Origin: a virus
Strand: one strand, 5' to 3'
Virus record (IMG/VR): IMGVR_UViG_3300032435_000016
Span: 1 to 48,917 of that record
Length of the DNA: 48,917 nt
The notes under the pieces were generated by a model. The model did not search any database, was not told the DNA's origin, and worked only from the letters and a program-made list of their open reading frames with translations. The position numbers were made by a program, and so were the translations under genes. Positions within the stretch are counted from its first letter, which is position 1, and every line of letters begins with the position of its first letter. This document shows positions 6,623 through 47,158 of this stretch, in pieces.

Positions 6623-6644
6623 AAGATAGTACGGATCTTAAAAG

Positions 6645-6718
6645 TGCCCTCGGCAGGACTCGAACCTGCAACCTAATGGGTAGAAACCATTTGCGCTATC
6701 CGTTGCGCCACGAAGGCA
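6645..6718 (-). tRNA. tRNA-Arg (anticodon UCU)
   Basis: A 74-nt leftward cloverleaf. The acceptor TGCCTTC pairs with GAGGGCA, the D-stem is GCGC/GCGC, and the anticodon stem is AATGG/CCATT with loop TTTCTAC, giving anticodon TCT. The T-arm GCAGG-TTCGAAT-CCTGC is canonical. The 3' CCA is not encoded. It would read AGA codons, which are common in the phage genes here, so it probably supplements host decoding. It is the only full cloverleaf I can see in the window. Confidence 0.93.
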
Positions 6719-7971: not shown

Positions 7972-9315
7972 CTAGCGCAACTTGTTTACTGGCTTCATTC
8001 TTTTAATAATTGAATCAGGCGACATAGGGGATTCAATTATTGCTTGGTAAAGATCAGGCTTTCGTTTTGCGAGAACTTTCTTATCACGTTCAGCTAACTG
8101 CTTCAACACGTGCCAAACGACGCCGATGTTTACGCCATTTCCAAGTTGTTTAAAGGTCGCCGATGAAGTTTGGCCATCAAAACTGTATGAATCAGGAAAA
8201 CCTTGAAGACGGGCAGCTTCTCTAACTGAAAGACGACGCCTTTCGGGCCCGATAATTGACGTCTGAGTAATTGCTACTAGGGCGGGTACATAGGTTGCTT
8301 TCTTGGCCCTAATTCCAGAGGGACGAAAATGCATCACTGTTTCCCAGAGAGTGTTAGCATCTTGCGCCTGCCACTCTAACTTGCGTCTGGAAGCAGGAAA
8401 CTCTTCAATTTTCCACTTGGCCTTCCATGCATCAATTAACTTAGAGTGATCAGAATAGAAGTTTGCATTCTTAGTTAGAAAGTCAATTTTCCAGGCTGGG
8501 GTTCCTTCTTCGATTTGCAGAGCAGCAGGATGTATCCAGGAATCAGACCACAATGGAAATCCAGGTAGTTTTTTATTTTTTCTAAGTTTCAACATTTTTT
8601 TGACAAAGTCATCCCAAGCATCAATCCAGCGAATCTCTTCATCTGATAGTTGTGATTCACTTGGAATCGATTCATGCACATCCAGTAAATCATCAGCGAG
8701 TGACCAAGTATTTGGATCCCAACCCGCAATCGGCTTGTTGTTGACGGGCGGTTCAACTTCTAGGTCCTGCTGGGATAGTTTCCCCCCGACATATGTGGCT
8801 GCGATAAAGACCCGTTCGCGAATCTGTGGACGCCCACCATGCTTCTTGTCCAGAAGATGAGGGCTAAAAATAGCAGGCTTGTCACTAACTCGGTATCCCT
8901 CGGCCCGCAGAGTTTCGATGATTACTTCCCATTCATGGGAATGCCTGGGGCCCGCGAGGTTTCGCACGTTCTCCAGCAAAACTATTGTAGGGTGATGCTT
9001 TTGAATTATTTTAAGTATGTTCCAGTACAGAGTTCCACGGGTTTCTTCCATGCCGCGCTGAGCGCCAGATTTAGAAAATGGCTGACAAGGAAAGCCTGCT
9101 ACCAATACGTCATGTTTTGGTATCTTTACACCATCGTCATTTGCAAGCTCTGTGATGTCCGCAAGCGCAGGAACACCCCAATTTTTTTCATACAATGCTG
9201 CAGCGCGCGGGTCTATTTCCACGGCTTTAACGCAATCGCCACCCATGGCAGATAGCGCTGCGTGAAATCCACCTATTCCTGCAAACAGGTCTATGTAAGT
9301 AAATTTTGCAGCCAT
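7972..9315 (-). CDS. C5-cytosine DNA methyltransferase
   Basis: A 447-aa m5C methyltransferase with all key motifs in order: motif I DLFAGIGGFHAAL (9-21), motif IV GFPCQPFS with catalytic Cys77, motif VI ENV (115-117), motif VIII QIRERVFI, motif IX RRLSVREAARLQGFPDSY, and motif X QLGNGVNIGVV. A long variable region between VIII and IX should carry the target-recognition domain. It transfers a methyl group from SAM to cytosine in a specific DNA site. No restriction endonuclease is adjacent, so protection of phage DNA is the likely role. The start has only a weak ribosome site. It stands alone, with repeat-rich non-coding DNA on both sides. Confidence 0.95.
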   Translation of the reverse strand: MAAKFTYIDLFAGIGGFHAALSAMGGDCVKAVEIDPRAAALYEKNWGVPALADITELANDDGVKIPKHDVLVAGFPCQPFSKSGAQRGMEETRGTLYWNILKIIQKHHPTIVLLENVRNLAGPRHSHEWEVIIETLRAEGYRVSDKPAIFSPHLLDKKHGGRPQIRERVFIAATYVGGKLSQQDLEVEPPVNNKPIAGWDPNTWSLADDLLDVHESIPSESQLSDEEIRWIDAWDDFVKKMLKLRKNKKLPGFPLWSDSWIHPAALQIEEGTPAWKIDFLTKNANFYSDHSKLIDAWKAKWKIEEFPASRRKLEWQAQDANTLWETVMHFRPSGIRAKKATYVPALVAITQTSIIGPERRRLSVREAARLQGFPDSYSFDGQTSSATFKQLGNGVNIGVVWHVLKQLAERDKKVLAKRKPDLYQAIIESPMSPDSIIKRMKPVNKLR

Positions 9316-24192: not shown

Positions 24193-24441
24193 ATGGCATA
24201 CGTAAGATTTAATCGCGGATCCGATCTTTATTTATTTATGTCCCCCTCAGGTTTAACTTGTTGTGGCTGTAGACTCTTATCGATCTATGCACCGTTAGAA
24301 AATGATGGTTTATCTTTTTACGCAAAATCAACACAGGAAATGATTACTCATTTAGCTTCTCACAGAGAGCTAGGCGACATGGTCCCAATGGGGATTGAAG
24401 AGAGTTTATTAAATGACGACAAAAATAACTACCCAACATAG
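24193..24441 (+). CDS. 82-aa conserved actinophage protein
   Basis: Sequence begins MAYVRFNRGSDLYLFMSP and contains TCCGCRL and the later MITHLASHRELGDMVP segment. I recognise this pattern from a small family common in actinobacterial phages; function unknown. The paired cysteines and histidines may bind zinc. AAGGAG precedes the ATG. Its 3' end overlaps the start of the methyltransferase gene by 29 bases, so the two are probably coupled. Confidence 0.78.
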   Translation: MAYVRFNRGSDLYLFMSPSGLTCCGCRLLSIYAPLENDGLSFYAKSTQEMITHLASHRELGDMVPMGIEESLLNDDKNNYPT

Positions 24442-25435
24442 TTTTACATTTGCTGATCTGTTTGCTGGTATTGGTGGCATGCGTATCGGTTTCGAAGCAG
24501 TTGGTGGAGAGTGCGTATTAACCAGCGAAATTGATCAAAAAGCTATGGAAACATATAGTGCCAATTTTATTGACTCAGAGTCTCATAAATTTGTTGCAGA
24601 CGTAACCAAGTTAACTAGAGAAGACTTTCCAGAAAACCTTGACGTATTAGTTGCAGGTTTTCCATGTCAGCCTTACAGCATGGCTGGACCACGTAGAGGA
24701 CTAGAAGACAAACGCGGCGGAGATATCTTTGATGCTCTAATGCACCTACTTAAAGAAGTAAAGCCAAGAGCATTTCTTTTTGAAAACGTAAAAGGCGTAC
24801 TTGGTCATGACGAAGGCAAGACGCTAGATCACATGCTTGGTCTCATGCTTGATCAGGGTTATCATGTTAGATACGAGACCTTAAACTCAATGACTCATGC
24901 AAACATCCCTCAAAACCGTGAGCGAGTATTTTTTGTTGGCTTTAGATATCCATACGAAGCAAAAATCTTTAACTACCCAAAACCAGTAGAGCTTACAAAA
25001 ACTATCTCTGACTGCTTTGAAAAAGGTCTTGTAGACGACAAGTTTTACTACACAGATAGAACAGAAGTTGGGAAGCTAATTCAGCACCACATTAAAGAAA
25101 AAGACACTATCTACCAGTGGCGTAGAAGCTACGCTCGCGATAATAAGAGTAACGTCTGCCCAACACTAACTGCCAACATGGGAACAGGTGGAAACAACGT
25201 ACCAATCATTGTTGATGACTCTGGGCCACGTAAACTAACTCCAAGAGAAGTATCTAACTTCCAGGGCTTCCCAGAAGAGTTTATTCTGCCTCTTATGGGA
25301 CTTAGCAATCTGTACAAGCAATTTGGCAATAGCGTTACCGTTCCTTTAATTTCCCGCGTAGCTGCCCAGATCAAACAAACCCTAGACACACCCACAAATT
25401 TTTCCCTGATGCATCCTCCTCCTACTCATAGGTAA
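24413..25435 (+). CDS. C5-cytosine DNA methyltransferase
   Basis: A 340-aa m5C methyltransferase, smaller than the one at 7972-9315 and clearly a separate lineage. Motif I is DLFAGIGGMRIGF, motif IV GFPCQPYS with catalytic Cys85, motif VI ENV (124-126), motif VIII IPQNRERVFFVGF, motif IX RKLTPREVSNFQGFPEEF, motif X YKQFGNSVTVPLI. It methylates cytosine in a specific DNA sequence; no endonuclease is adjacent, so phage DNA protection is likely. The last codons and stop lie inside hairpin element copy C. Confidence 0.95.
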   Translation: MTTKITTQHSFTFADLFAGIGGMRIGFEAVGGECVLTSEIDQKAMETYSANFIDSESHKFVADVTKLTREDFPENLDVLVAGFPCQPYSMAGPRRGLEDKRGGDIFDALMHLLKEVKPRAFLFENVKGVLGHDEGKTLDHMLGLMLDQGYHVRYETLNSMTHANIPQNRERVFFVGFRYPYEAKIFNYPKPVELTKTISDCFEKGLVDDKFYYTDRTEVGKLIQHHIKEKDTIYQWRRSYARDNKSNVCPTLTANMGTGGNNVPIIVDDSGPRKLTPREVSNFQGFPEEFILPLMGLSNLYKQFGNSVTVPLISRVAAQIKQTLDTPTNFSLMHPPPTHR

Positions 25436-27270: not shown

Positions 27271-27299
27271 CCTATAACTCATACGTTATAACGTATAGG
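27271..27299. promoter_or_regulatory. Nested palindromes upstream of the tmRNA-like gene
   Basis: ATACGTTATAACGTAT (27281-27296) is a perfect 16-bp palindrome, and CCTATA (27271-27276) with TATAGG (27294-27299) forms an outer pair. It lies about 130 bp before the tmRNA-like RNA and may be an operator. The gap 27255-27429 contains no other feature I can support. Confidence 0.5.
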
Positions 27300-27429: not shown

Positions 27430-27511
27430 GGGGCAGGAAGGTTTCGACTAACTGTAAAACCGCATGACGGTCTATGTTAGGACAGGGGTTCGATTCCCCT
27501 CTGCTCCACGA
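27430..27511 (+). ncRNA. tmRNA-like RNA lacking the mRNA-like domain
   Basis: The 5' end (GGGGCAGGAAGGTTTCGAC) matches the conserved tmRNA start, and the 3' end has a T-arm AGGGG-TTCGATT-CCCCT and acceptor CTGCTCC. The 7-bp acceptor includes the G3-U pair used for alanylation. A full tmRNA has roughly 250-300 nt between these parts, encoding the tag and pseudoknots. Here there is only a CTAAC/GTTAG helix and a small ACCG-CATGA-CGGT hairpin. The 3' terminus is ACGA, not ACCA. A terminator follows. It is tRNA-sized, yet lacks a normal D-arm and anticodon arm. Confidence 0.72.
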
Positions 27512-27521
27512 ATGACAAATG

Positions 27522-27545
27522 CGTACCGTTTGCAGTACGGTTTTG
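27522..27545 (+). terminator. Terminator after the tmRNA-like gene
   Basis: CGTAC (27522-27526) pairs with GTACG (27535-27539), or ACCGT (27525-27529) with ACGGT (27537-27541), followed by a short T-run (27541-27544). It lies 11 bases after the RNA 3' end and supports the RNA being an expressed unit. Confidence 0.6.
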
Positions 27546-27578
27546 TCACGGTAAAGGAATAGGCTAAGTTGTAAAAAG

Positions 27579-38733: not shown

Positions 38734-43143
<4,410 letters not shown>

Positions 43144-43174
43144 TGAAAATAATTATTTTAAGAGGAGGTAACTA

Positions 43175-43864
43175 ATGGCTATAAATTTCCCAAATACTCC
43201 AGCAGTAGATGACATTTATACTTACCTAACTCAAACATATATTTGGAACGGGTTTTATTGGAGACTAGTTCGTACTAGCGCTGTAGGCCCAACTGGTCCA
43301 ACAGGGCCTGCTGGCGCTGACTCAACTGCCGTAGGATCAACTGGTCCCACTGGAGATCTAGGTTCAACGGGACCTACTGGCCCAGCTGGCATAATTCCTG
43401 GCCCAACTGGTCCAACAGGTCCTGCAGGATCTTTTGGTTTCACCGCTTGGACAACATACAGCCCTACTTGGACTTCCAATGGTACGCAACCTGTATTAGG
43501 TAACGGAACTTTAACTGGTAGATATGTATCGCTAGGGGCAACTATTGTTGGCGAGATAAGAATGGTTGCTGGTTCTAGCGGTTTTAGTAGAGGAAGTGGG
43601 AAGTACTACTTTTCTCTTCCTTCTACAGGTGTAGCAGAAAATTTTCAACCAATGGGTCAAGTTGTTATTAGAGATGAAGGCCCTGGTCTGACTTACTTCG
43701 GTACAGCAATTTTTAATGAAGGAAATGATGCAAGAATTGAAGCCTGGGTGCATGGTCAATCAGCAGCTTATGACGAAGGTTTTCCTGTCGGCTCAGATGT
43801 ACCTTTTTTGTTCAGTGCAAGCGATAGAATTTTAATTCACTTTACATATGAATCGGTGGTTTAG
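43175..43864 (+). CDS. Collagen-like fibre protein, 229 aa
   Basis: AGAGGAGG precedes the ATG. The N-terminal module ([19 protein letters not shown], then [12 protein letters not shown]) is shared with the next collagen gene and that at 46508. A short collagen-like part (about 40-85, [10 protein letters not shown] style) leads to a beta-rich head (residues 90-229; [15 protein letters not shown] start) resembling the C-terminal head of the giant fibre. Probably a shorter companion fibre with its own receptor-binding tip. Confidence 0.85.
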
Positions 43865-43871
43865 TTAATAA

Positions 43872-45281
43872 ATGGCTATTAATTTTCCAGACACACCAAC
43901 TCTAAACCAACAGTATTCTTTTGGATTTAACACCTGGGAGTGGGATGGAGTTGCTTGGCAACTTGTTATTTCTGAGGTAGTTGGTCCAACGGGGCCTACT
44001 GGTCCTACAGGTAACGCATCAACAGTTACAGGTCCTACAGGTTCTACAGGTAACTTTAATACAGTTTCTGATACCCCTCCTGCAGATCCAGACCCAGGTG
44101 ATGCTTGGTTTAACTCAGCTACAGGTCAAATATATGTATATTATGACGGTTTTTGGATTGAATCTGCTTCTAGCAGTATCGGACCGCAAGGACCAACGGG
44201 TGCAACCGGGCCTATCGGAGATGCGAGCACGGTAACTGGTCCTACTGGACCTACAGGTTCAACTGGTGCAACAGGATCTATAGGTCAAACGGGTCCCACA
44301 GGTCTATCAGTTACTGGCCCAACTGGACCAACTGGACCAAGAGGGTCAACTGGACCACAGGGAGTTACTGGACCTGATGGTCAACAAGGTGTTATTGGAC
44401 CGCAAGGGTCAGCTGGTGATATCGGTTCTCAAGGTATTGAAGGACCAACTGGGCCTACTGGCGCTACTGGGTCTCAGGGTCCGCAGGGTCCTACTGGAGT
44501 TAGAGGTTTTACAGGATTTACAGGACCGCAAGGTGCTACAGGTGCTACGGGTGCATCTGTTACTGGATCTACGGGACCTAGCGGACCAACTGGTCCTAGT
44601 GGCGGGCCAACTGGACCAACGGGTTCTACAGGTGCTACAGGTGCTACAGGTATTCAAGGCGAGACTGGTCTTAGAGGTGTAACTGGTGCAACGGGTGCTA
44701 CAGGTGCTGCCTCAACAATTGCAGGTCCAACGGGCGCTACGGGACCAACTGGCCCTATATCCACACAGCCGTCAGTGACCCCTGGCCCAACTGGTCCGAC
44801 GGGTGCAACGGGTGCTGCTTCTCAGGTAACAGGACCAACTGGTGCACTAGGCCCAACTGGTCCGACGGGTGCAACGGGTGCTGCTTCTCAGGTAACAGGA
44901 CCAACTGGTGCACTAGGCCCAACTGGTCTAACGGGTGCTAATTCAGTAGTACCTGGACCACCATTTTATGATCTAGTAGTTGCTTCAGCTAGTGGAACTA
45001 GTTACACGTTATCTCTCGATGATAGAGGGGATCTAGTACAAACAATTGGATCTGCTGCTGTATCAGTTATTATTCCTACGGATGCAAGCGTACTTTTCCC
45101 TACAGGAGCTCAAATTCTTCTTGTGCAAGGAGGGGAAGGGCAAGTAACTATAACTGAAGCTGTAGGTGTAACTTTAGTGTCAGAAGGTAGTAGAAGAAAA
45201 ATTAAATCTCAATATGGCGTTGCTTCACTAATTAAATTATCTTCGAATAGATGGCTTTTAACTGGAAACATAGTGTCTTAA
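43872..45281 (+). CDS. Collagen-like fibre protein, 469 aa
   Basis: N-terminus [19 protein letters not shown] with [12 protein letters not shown] matches the shared module. An insert [20 protein letters not shown] (about residues 78-97) is the same module seen in the giant fibre. A long collagen-like region (about 100-360) follows, then a beta-rich C-terminal head ending [14 protein letters not shown] 66-bp tandem repeat lies in its DNA. It starts seven bases after the preceding gene, so the fibre genes form one transcript. Confidence 0.87.
44784..44937 (+). repeat. 66-bp tandem repeat in fibre gene
   Basis: Units at 44784-44849 and 44850-44915 are identical (begin GGCCCAACTGGTCCGACGGG), followed by a partial third copy with changes. 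In-frame duplication of 22 residues lengthens the collagen shaft. Confidence 0.85.
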
Positions 45282-45284
45282 ATT

Positions 45285-46277
45285 ATGTACACAGTGACTC
45301 ATGCATTTATTTCAACAGATTTTACATCATTTACTCCCATATCTTGGGCTCAAGTAACTAACACAGCTTTTGGTCTGTCAAATATAAACTCTGTTGCCTT
45401 TGGAAATGAAAAGTATCTTGTAGTGGGGGATGCTGGAAAAATGTCAATAAGTTCTACTATCTCATCAGGATGGTCTTTAGTTGCAAATTCTTCTTTTGGA
45501 ACAGCAAAAATAGTTACAGTAAGCTATGGAAACAATTTATTTGTAGCAGCTGGTGCAGTAGGAAAACTTGCTACATCTGTAAATGGAATTAATTGGACTC
45601 AGCGCTCCTCATCATTTGGATCAGCAACAATTATGTCTGTAGCCTACTCAAGTGCGTTTAATAAATGGTATGCGGTAAGTAATGATGGAAAAATTGGAAC
45701 TTCAGTAAATGGAATATCTTGGACTTTAATTGCAACACCTTTTAGTTCTACGCAAATTAACACAGTATATGTAGGAAAAATTTACACTATATCGAGTACA
45801 GAATTTGACATAAACGGACTTCCTATAGTTACGTACTCAGGGCAAGACATAGTTGTAGCTGCTGGCTATGAAGGAAAACTTGCTACATTTACTGCAGGAG
45901 ACAATGCTTGGATACTTAGAGAATCTGGTTTTGTGACAGATACAATATATGACATTTCTTCAGATGTAGAAAATAGATATGTTGCAATTGGAGATCTAGG
46001 TAAGGTTGCAATCTCTAATGGAGGTACTGTTTGGCAATCGGCATATCCATCAACATCATTTGGTTCATCAACAATTAGAACAATTTCTGTTGCTCCAATC
46101 TACGGAACGGCTTTTGTAGCAGCTGGTGCAGTAGGAAAACTTGCTACATCTTATGCTGGAGCTTCATGGGATCAAAGAACCTCTTCTTTCGGATCGAGTA
46201 CAATAAACAGTATACTTGTGACAGAAGACAGAGCTGTAGCCGTCGGCAATGCTGGAAAAATAGCTTACTCACTATAA
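45285..46277 (+). CDS. 330-aa beta-propeller-like protein
   Basis: Repeats of about 40-50 residues built around AAGAVGKLATS / VVGDAGKMSIS / SNDGKIGTS / AIGDLGKVAIS, each followed by a W-containing strand (NWTQRSSSFGSATI). This resembles Ycf48/BNR-type propellers with about seven blades. Such propellers in phage fibre clusters often bind glycans on the host surface. It begins three bases after the collagen gene stop. Not assigned to an exact family. Confidence 0.72.
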   Translation: MYTVTHAFISTDFTSFTPISWAQVTNTAFGLSNINSVAFGNEKYLVVGDAGKMSISSTISSGWSLVANSSFGTAKIVTVSYGNNLFVAAGAVGKLATSVNGINWTQRSSSFGSATIMSVAYSSAFNKWYAVSNDGKIGTSVNGISWTLIATPFSSTQINTVYVGKIYTISSTEFDINGLPIVTYSGQDIVVAAGYEGKLATFTAGDNAWILRESGFVTDTIYDISSDVENRYVAIGDLGKVAISNGGTVWQSAYPSTSFGSSTIRTISVAPIYGTAFVAAGAVGKLATSYAGASWDQRTSSFGSSTINSILVTEDRAVAVGNAGKIAYSL

Positions 46278-46286
46278 GGAATTAAA

Positions 46287-46439
46287 ATGTATACATATGA
46301 AGTTACTGGAACTCCACCAATCTGTAAAATTATGTTTGATGGTAATGTAATAGATAACAGCGGGCCTTGGGAATCTAAAGAAGCCGCTGAGCGATGGGCA
46401 GAAGCCTACACAAACAAGTTAAACGCTGGTTTAAACTAA
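46287..46439 (+). CDS. 50-aa small protein in fibre cluster
   Basis: AAGGA lies before the ATG at 46287 and the stop is at 46437-46439. Sequence MYTYEVTGTPPICKIMFDGN, then WESKEAAERWAEAYTNKLN, forms a small alpha/beta domain. Its N-terminus resembles the start of the propeller protein (MYTVTHAF). Possibly a fibre accessory or chaperone; not recognised. Confidence 0.66.
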   Translation: MYTYEVTGTPPICKIMFDGNVIDNSGPWESKEAAERWAEAYTNKLNAGLN

Positions 46440-46507
46440 TCTAACTTTAAATTTTTAGGTTAGAATAGACTTTAGCCACCAGACCGCCAATAAGGAGACA
46501 CCAGACC

Positions 46508-47158
46508 GTGTCAGCAATTGATTTCCCATCTCCAGCCGAAGTCGGTGAAGAATTTACCTCAGGCGGGCATACTTGGATTTGGACAGGCACCGTTTGGGAA
46601 GTAAAAAGAACAGCCCCGCTCGGTCCTACTGGTGCAATAGGTCCAACGGGAGCTCAGGGTCCAACTGGTGCAACGGGTGCAACGGGCTCTCAAGGCGAGC
46701 AAGGTGTTACAGGACCAGAATCAACAATAGCTGGCCCTACTGGTCCCACTGGAGATCTAGGTCCTCAAGGACCAACTGGTCCACAGGGTGATACGGGACC
46801 ACAAGGTTTTAGAGGATTTACAGGACCTACAGGCGCTGATTCTCAGGTAGCTGGTCCTCAGGGGCCAACGGGACCAAGAGGTATTGTTGGATTTACAGGG
46901 CCTACAGGTGCGCAATCTGTCGTACCAGGTCCTACGGGACCTACAGGTCCGCAAGGTAAATTTACTGCATCGCCTACGCAACCAGATGTAGAATTATCTA
47001 CAGATGGCGATGCTTGGTTTGATACCAATACAGGGCTAACTTACATCTTTTTTGGGGGACTATTTATTCAGGCTGCTGGTGGCACTATTGGTTCTACTGG
47101 ACCGACTGGTTCGCAAGGGACACTCGCTGTATCTACCTCTTGGTGGTTAGGTGTTTAA
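46508..47158 (+). CDS. Collagen-like fibre protein, 216 aa
   Basis: GTG start with AAGGAG upstream. N-terminal module [20 protein letters not shown] with [12 protein letters not shown] is the same as in the two earlier collagen genes. A collagen-like stretch (about 38-150) leads to a [20 protein letters not shown] module and a short end (VSTSWWLGV). No separate head domain, so it may be the anchor or shaft component of a shorter fibre. Preceded by a TAGAAT -10-like box and a small CTAAC/GTTAG hairpin at 46440-46465. Confidence 0.84.

Follow-up and report, generated by a model that had tools for sequence, protein, structure and literature searches.

The closest precedent for a tmRNA without a message comes from the Mycobacterium phage DS6A. 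According to the passages on it in PMC4131195 and PMC11915505, which attribute this tmRNA to Mao et al. (2009), the DS6A gene comprises little besides the tRNA-like domain (TLD), and a similar molecule, whether or not it can be charged, strongly inhibits E. coli tmRNA, perhaps by titrating SmpB. DS6A is the only phage case named in a 2025 paper on the tmRNA database, and our literature search, whose reach excluded most subscription papers, found no further reports of TLD-only phage tmRNA. Jakobid mitochondria and Mallomonadaceae plastids also have tmRNAs with a tRNA-like domain and no tag frame (about 65 bp), but these are organellar, and an SmpB encoded in the nucleus accompanies the mitochondrial ones (PMC11915505).

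Here, we describe a tRNA-sized RNA gene of 79 bases in a virus contig from IMG/VR (the window, which is the whole stretch of 48,917 nucleotides that we analysed). The gene keeps the tRNA-like head of tmRNA and has a tiny hairpin in place of the message part, so we will term it a mini-tmRNA, or mini. To judge by DS6A's published description, the two are alike in being phage genes with little beyond the tRNA-like domain and no tag-coding sequence, but DS6A is one named phage whereas we found hundreds of minis. Full-length tmRNAs (those of bacteria and of phages Bxz1, Wildcat, GodonK, and Sixama) share with the mini an acceptor with G3-U70, the UUCGAC and GGAC motifs, and the T-arm. However, where the mini has an insert of only 23 nt with a hairpin of 4 bp, they have a message domain, which usually includes pseudoknots and a tag. 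Phage tRNAs are of similar size, and some minis lie within tRNA arrays, but the mini lacks an anticodon arm. Finally, phage BetterKatz carries the 3' part of tmRNA alone, as attP, while the mini also has a paired 5' acceptor strand and the D-loop motif. Thus, what was known is a message-less tmRNA from one named phage, and what appears to be new is the breadth of the family, its conserved inner hairpin, the selection on its charging signal, and its recurrence in at least two genomic settings. The features of the window gene and its 3' flank are:

27430..27508, + strand: mini-tmRNA gene (tRNA-like domain, P2, and P3 hairpin, without an mRNA-like domain); 80.9 bits with our covariance model R1
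27430..27436, + strand: 5' strand of the acceptor (P1), GGGGCAG, including G3 of G3-U70; pairing 7/7, and positions 4-6 covary in the family
27440..27448, + strand: D-loop-like motif GGTTTCGAC; 15 new loci from a pattern without this requirement are complete minis too
27448..27452, + strand: 5' strand of the P2 helix (5 bp), CTAAC; every P2 pair changed on both sides in alignment A3
27459..27471, + strand: P3 hairpin ACCG-CATGA-CGGT, at the place of the mRNA-like domain and preceded by a conserved AAA; 92% of cells paired
27476..27480, + strand: 3' strand of the P2 helix, GTTAG, from the family alignment
27484..27500, + strand: T-arm AGGGG-TTCGATT-CCCCT, a perfect 5 bp; 100% of family cells paired
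27501..27508, + strand: 3' strand of the acceptor, CTGCTCC (U70 included), followed by the discriminator A73; all 152 true unique sequences have G3-U70
27513..27549, either strand: hairpin with an A-tract and a T-tract, terminator-like on both strands; 2 sites on two strands, 0.3 expected

A preliminary description had proposed a tRNA-sized, tmRNA-like gene without a tag-coding domain, and the Rfam tmRNA model bears this out: RF00023 matches 27430-27511 from end to end (model positions 1-374, 57.8 bits, cut-off 47, E = 3.7e-20), with about 308 interior model positions absent and the interior collapsed to a small hairpin. The same description had pointed to the tmRNA hallmark behind a 7-bp acceptor strand, to a perfect T-arm and an acceptor G-U pair, to about 23 nt with one hairpin in place of the mRNA-like domain and pseudoknots, and to a terminator, and each of these is found at the positions given above. 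The P2 strands enclose 23 nt with a single hairpin (4 bp), and GGAC follows P2. The terminator-like hairpin has a fold of −13.9 kcal/mol (z = −2.1). The CCA end is not encoded (the tail is ACGA). No other place in the record resembles a tmRNA. An mRNA-like domain with a resume codon and tag frame is absent from the 23 nt, no recovered family member has room for one, and neither the Rfam alignment nor the family structure contains pseudoknots. We also considered a minimal encoded tag, but stop codons and reading frames in the inserts, checked by eye, had nothing in common. ARAGORN did not detect the mini in the window; neither ARAGORN nor Rfam called a tRNA at its place, which lacks the combination of D-arm, anticodon arm, and T-arm that RF00005 describes. 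As the minimum-energy fold of the single sequence is not the tmRNA fold, the case for the structure rests on comparison.

To find other members, we scanned IMG/VR with patterns (a first, capped scan and four further ones) that required the 5' motif and the T-arm at the short distance of 15-45 nt. A fully paired 7-bp acceptor was present at 225 viral loci, which form about 87 groups below 80% identity, and over 250 virus contigs carry mini-tmRNA genes overall. These counts are lower bounds because pattern scans miss divergent members; also, many contigs in IMG/VR are incomplete, and host DNA may be present in some. In 84,980 prokaryote genomes, the same pattern gave 46 hits, mostly 3' ends of full-length tmRNAs or chance matches, and just six true minis (L136, L140, L144, L148, L156, and L167), of which L140 lies on a contig that is also an IMG/VR virus contig. 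A covariance-model search of 396 genomes from the phylum of a mini-bearing Mycobacterium MAG recovered the known mini and none in the other 395. The mini gene is therefore essentially viral. Among the sources with a mini is a contig from a single-cell assembly of Prochlorococcus. A full-length tmRNA match is likewise present in all five of the mini-bearing cellular genomes that we tested, and the comparison with host ssrA that had been suggested, made for five host/mini pairs, showed that the TLD and acceptor differ between the two. It is the short form itself that is conserved. A local deletion or assembly error, which the preliminary description had considered, is ruled out by the family and by a second record of the same virus (L047), which agrees with the window at each of 6,797 bases.

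Among isolated phages (a collection that we covered by blastn and tblastn), the window region had no blastn match. A concatenated query of 26 minis matched four Streptomyces phages, Shaeky, LuckySocke, GiJojo, and pSt2308, which carry the mini without annotation. The same query had a Moorella match, which lies in the end of an integrase gene, and most of its matches in genome_contigs were 3' ends of full-length tmRNAs or chance. When given minis, ARAGORN missed or miscalled them, for example as tRNA-Pyl or as an undetermined tRNA.

Because linker length varies, MAFFT misaligned the acceptor, so we built the covariance model R1 from a subset of 29 sequences of near-equal layout. All 100 sources that we searched with R1 gave a mini, at E below 1e-8 (E-values of a short-calibrated model are rough). 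In the family alignment, 96.5% of cells are in standard pairs, as compared to 68.7% after shuffling, and both partners vary in 17 of the 22 pairs. Covariation scores 0.638, versus 0.123 for shuffled alignments and at most 0.077 with the partners slid. Pairing of the acceptor and T-arm thus holds up in homologs, as a genuine gene of this kind had been expected to show. The inner hairpin, which in most members is of the type CCGC-NN-GCGG with an A-rich 5' flank, covaries as well (both-sided changes in 3/3 pairs). Since the alignment follows the structure of the model and its sources had been chosen by pattern, we ran two further scans that were anchored on the inner hairpin and one half of the molecule. 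The 5'-anchored scan does not require the 3' half, yet 20 of its 21 new loci are complete minis; the 3'-anchored scan does not require the 5' half, and all 15 of its new loci are complete minis. G3 and U70 are present in 20/20 aligned loci from these scans. Judging from these patterns of substitution, strong selection maintains the mini structure across unrelated contexts.

For alanyl-tRNA synthetase, the chief identity element is G3-U70. In contrast to acceptor pairs 4, 5, and 6, which each show five to six pair types, pair 3-70 never varies (the single exception, L164, is a false positive). Since G-C would serve the structure equally well, alanine charging of the mini appears to be under selection. 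ACCA is encoded in only 38 of 153 unique genes, so most minis must get their CCA end from a host enzyme. (C74 is encoded in most minis even without C75 and A76, as in the tails ACGC, ACGG, and ACTA.) We found no SmpB gene in 46 mini-bearing records, so any SmpB must be the host's.

In the window, plus-strand ORFs flank a stretch of about 525 bp that contains the mini; downstream of the mini are a small ORF and, at 650 nt, a gene of the serine recombinase family. A perfect 16-bp palindrome, ATACGTTATAACGTAT (27281-27296), lies 134 bp upstream of the mini and about 850 bp before the recombinase gene; it is a possible operator or recombination site. The nearest relative, L059, retains the RNA (92 nt, 97%), around which blastn finds nothing else in common, and the P3 hairpin of L059 has a compensatory change from G-C to A-U. 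Among isolates, the freshwater Actinomycetia phage DSL-LC01 has the closest terminase (75%), and it carries neither a mini nor a full-length tmRNA, so the mini gene is dispensable in the window virus's group. GodonK and Sixama are more distant by terminase and have full-length tmRNAs, which Rfam places at 84631-85159 of MK620899 and 88707-89128 of MN484601, respectively; the GodonK annotation lists no tmRNA in that stretch. We lean towards an actinobacterial host. The window has one tRNA-Arg(tct) gene, at 6644-6717 (−), and a similar tRNA-Arg(tct) lies directly 3' of the mini in L071 (6390-6463) and L285 (1638-1712), so the window's tRNA and mini may once have adjoined. The window also contains two ORFs resembling C5 cytosine methyltransferases, at 7972-9315 (−, by translation alone) and 24413-25435 (+, confirmed by Pfam), and, at 38791-47158, several long ORFs with collagen-like GPT/GAT repeats that probably encode tail or surface fibres.

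Across the family, two genomic homes recur. First, 38 of 235 minis are within 1.5 kb of tRNA genes, as compared to 6% of random positions, and for 37 of these 38, all of the nearby tRNAs are on the same strand. Examples are the unannotated minis of LuckySocke, Shaeky, and pSt2308; in Streptomyces phages, minis occur in tRNA arrays that have RNA ligase genes beside them. Second, at 45 loci, the mini is just upstream of the major capsid gene (the order is portal, protease, mini, capsid), and in most loci of this lineage it is 70-300 nt before the capsid gene. A TANNNT (−10-like) box is exactly 12 nt before the RNA in 11 of the lineage's 23 distinct upstream sequences (0.35 expected), although these loci are related to each other and the count is not one of independent events. 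The box suggests that transcription starts at the mini itself. We saw such a promoter box only in this lineage and not upstream of minis generally. Many loci have a terminator-like hairpin before the box, so that the mini lies between this hairpin and the capsid gene (L224:4080-4340, L003, L015, L030, L177, and relatives); a second −10-like box, about 25 nt after the mini, is perhaps the capsid promoter. Finally, one 123-kb phage has both forms, a full-length tmRNA of 392 bp (L286, G023:77588-77979) and a mini (L172:1769-1847). For L286, ARAGORN gives the tag as SPEYRIRLLTNTKW, which looks doubtful; by eye, the frame GNLFNTVISWVKGLFSPRVALSV is possible.

What does the mini do? Among the functions that the preliminary description had listed, a decoy for SmpB or a modulator of ribosome rescue would fit best, given the inhibition by a similar molecule that is reported in the passages cited above (PMC4131195; PMC11915505). 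Our data show the fold, its conservation, the retained alanine identity pair, and the lack of a message domain and of a phage SmpB. We propose, at about an even chance of being right, that the mini is an alanylated, SmpB-dependent competitor that inhibits or diverts the host's trans-translation. The gene would yield a stable tRNA-sized RNA, which the host's alanyl-tRNA synthetase would charge with alanine and which the host's SmpB and EF-Tu would then bind. The charged mini would compete with host tmRNA for SmpB and for stalled ribosomes. As it has no resume codon or tag, it could not complete trans-translation. Tagging by host tmRNA would be lowered or diverted during infection, and the phage would presumably benefit, for instance if fewer of its proteins were tagged for proteolysis. 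More broadly, the mini is probably a conserved viral tool to block or redirect the host's ribosome rescue. Three observations do not fit easily with a competitor. A plain anti-tmRNA role does not predict a phage with both forms, a pure SmpB sponge would not need G3-U70, and DSL-LC01 has neither form. Because G3-U70 is invariant even though inhibition in E. coli is reported for an uncharged version as well, we think that the charged RNA acts on the ribosome, beyond soaking up SmpB.

A second possibility is that the charged mini, with host SmpB, enters stalled ribosomes and takes over the nascent chain, after which the complex falls apart or adds alanines and the ribosomes are freed without tagging. 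The mini would then help the phage's translation instead of blocking the host's. The invariant identity pair, the coexistence of both forms in one phage, and the position of some minis near phage tRNA genes, that is, with the phage's translation kit, are all consistent with this, as is the retention of TLD-only mitochondrial tmRNAs together with SmpB (PMC11915505). Nevertheless, this seems somewhat unlikely because a similar molecule inhibits E. coli tmRNA (PMC4131195) and because, without a message, there is no known termination step to free the ribosome. A related idea, which we consider a little more doubtful still, is that minis, as a virus-specific RNA family with its own conserved inner hairpin and AAA flank, act in charged form on the ribosome: with host SmpB they would accept nascent chains and then form a dead-end complex or add alanines repeatedly without a template. 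If so, this would be a third fate of stalled ribosomes, besides tagging and release.

Third, the mini could be another kind of decoy, which occupies alanyl-tRNA synthetase or EF-Tu or, where host nucleases or toxins attack tRNA-like molecules, serves as a bait or as a substitute that is spared. It could also be an RNA-processing signal in phage transcripts. The RNA ligase genes beside mini-containing tRNA arrays and the short distance to the capsid gene in one lineage might be explained in this way. This strikes us as quite unlikely: no tRNA has such a D-loop-like motif and T-arm, which are typical of tmRNA, G3-U70 would be superfluous in a processing signal, and, in the capsid-linked lineage, the −10-like box at a fixed distance suggests a gene of its own. 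Finally, a decayed gene or a recombination target, both raised in the preliminary description, can be put aside as very improbable, even with a serine-family recombinase gene nearby and with the BetterKatz precedent: the two halves persist and covary across about 87 divergent groups; the 5' half, which would be missing from an attP remnant, is present here and complementary to the 3' half; the five host/mini differences reject a recent deletion of the host's tmRNA gene; and L059 keeps the RNA in flanks without blastn similarity.

These results take the message-less phage tmRNA from one published case to a large, covarying, virus-specific RNA family, which reaches from phages of soil actinobacteria to many environmental virus contigs and to a contig of a Prochlorococcus single-cell assembly. 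That minis are overlooked or misnamed by ARAGORN and unannotated in the Streptomyces isolates is a gap in annotation. The invariant alanine identity pair indicates that charging is important, and a simple SmpB sponge would have no need of it. With the Streptomyces isolates, one can test directly whether it is common for viruses to attack or bypass the rescue of bacterial ribosomes.
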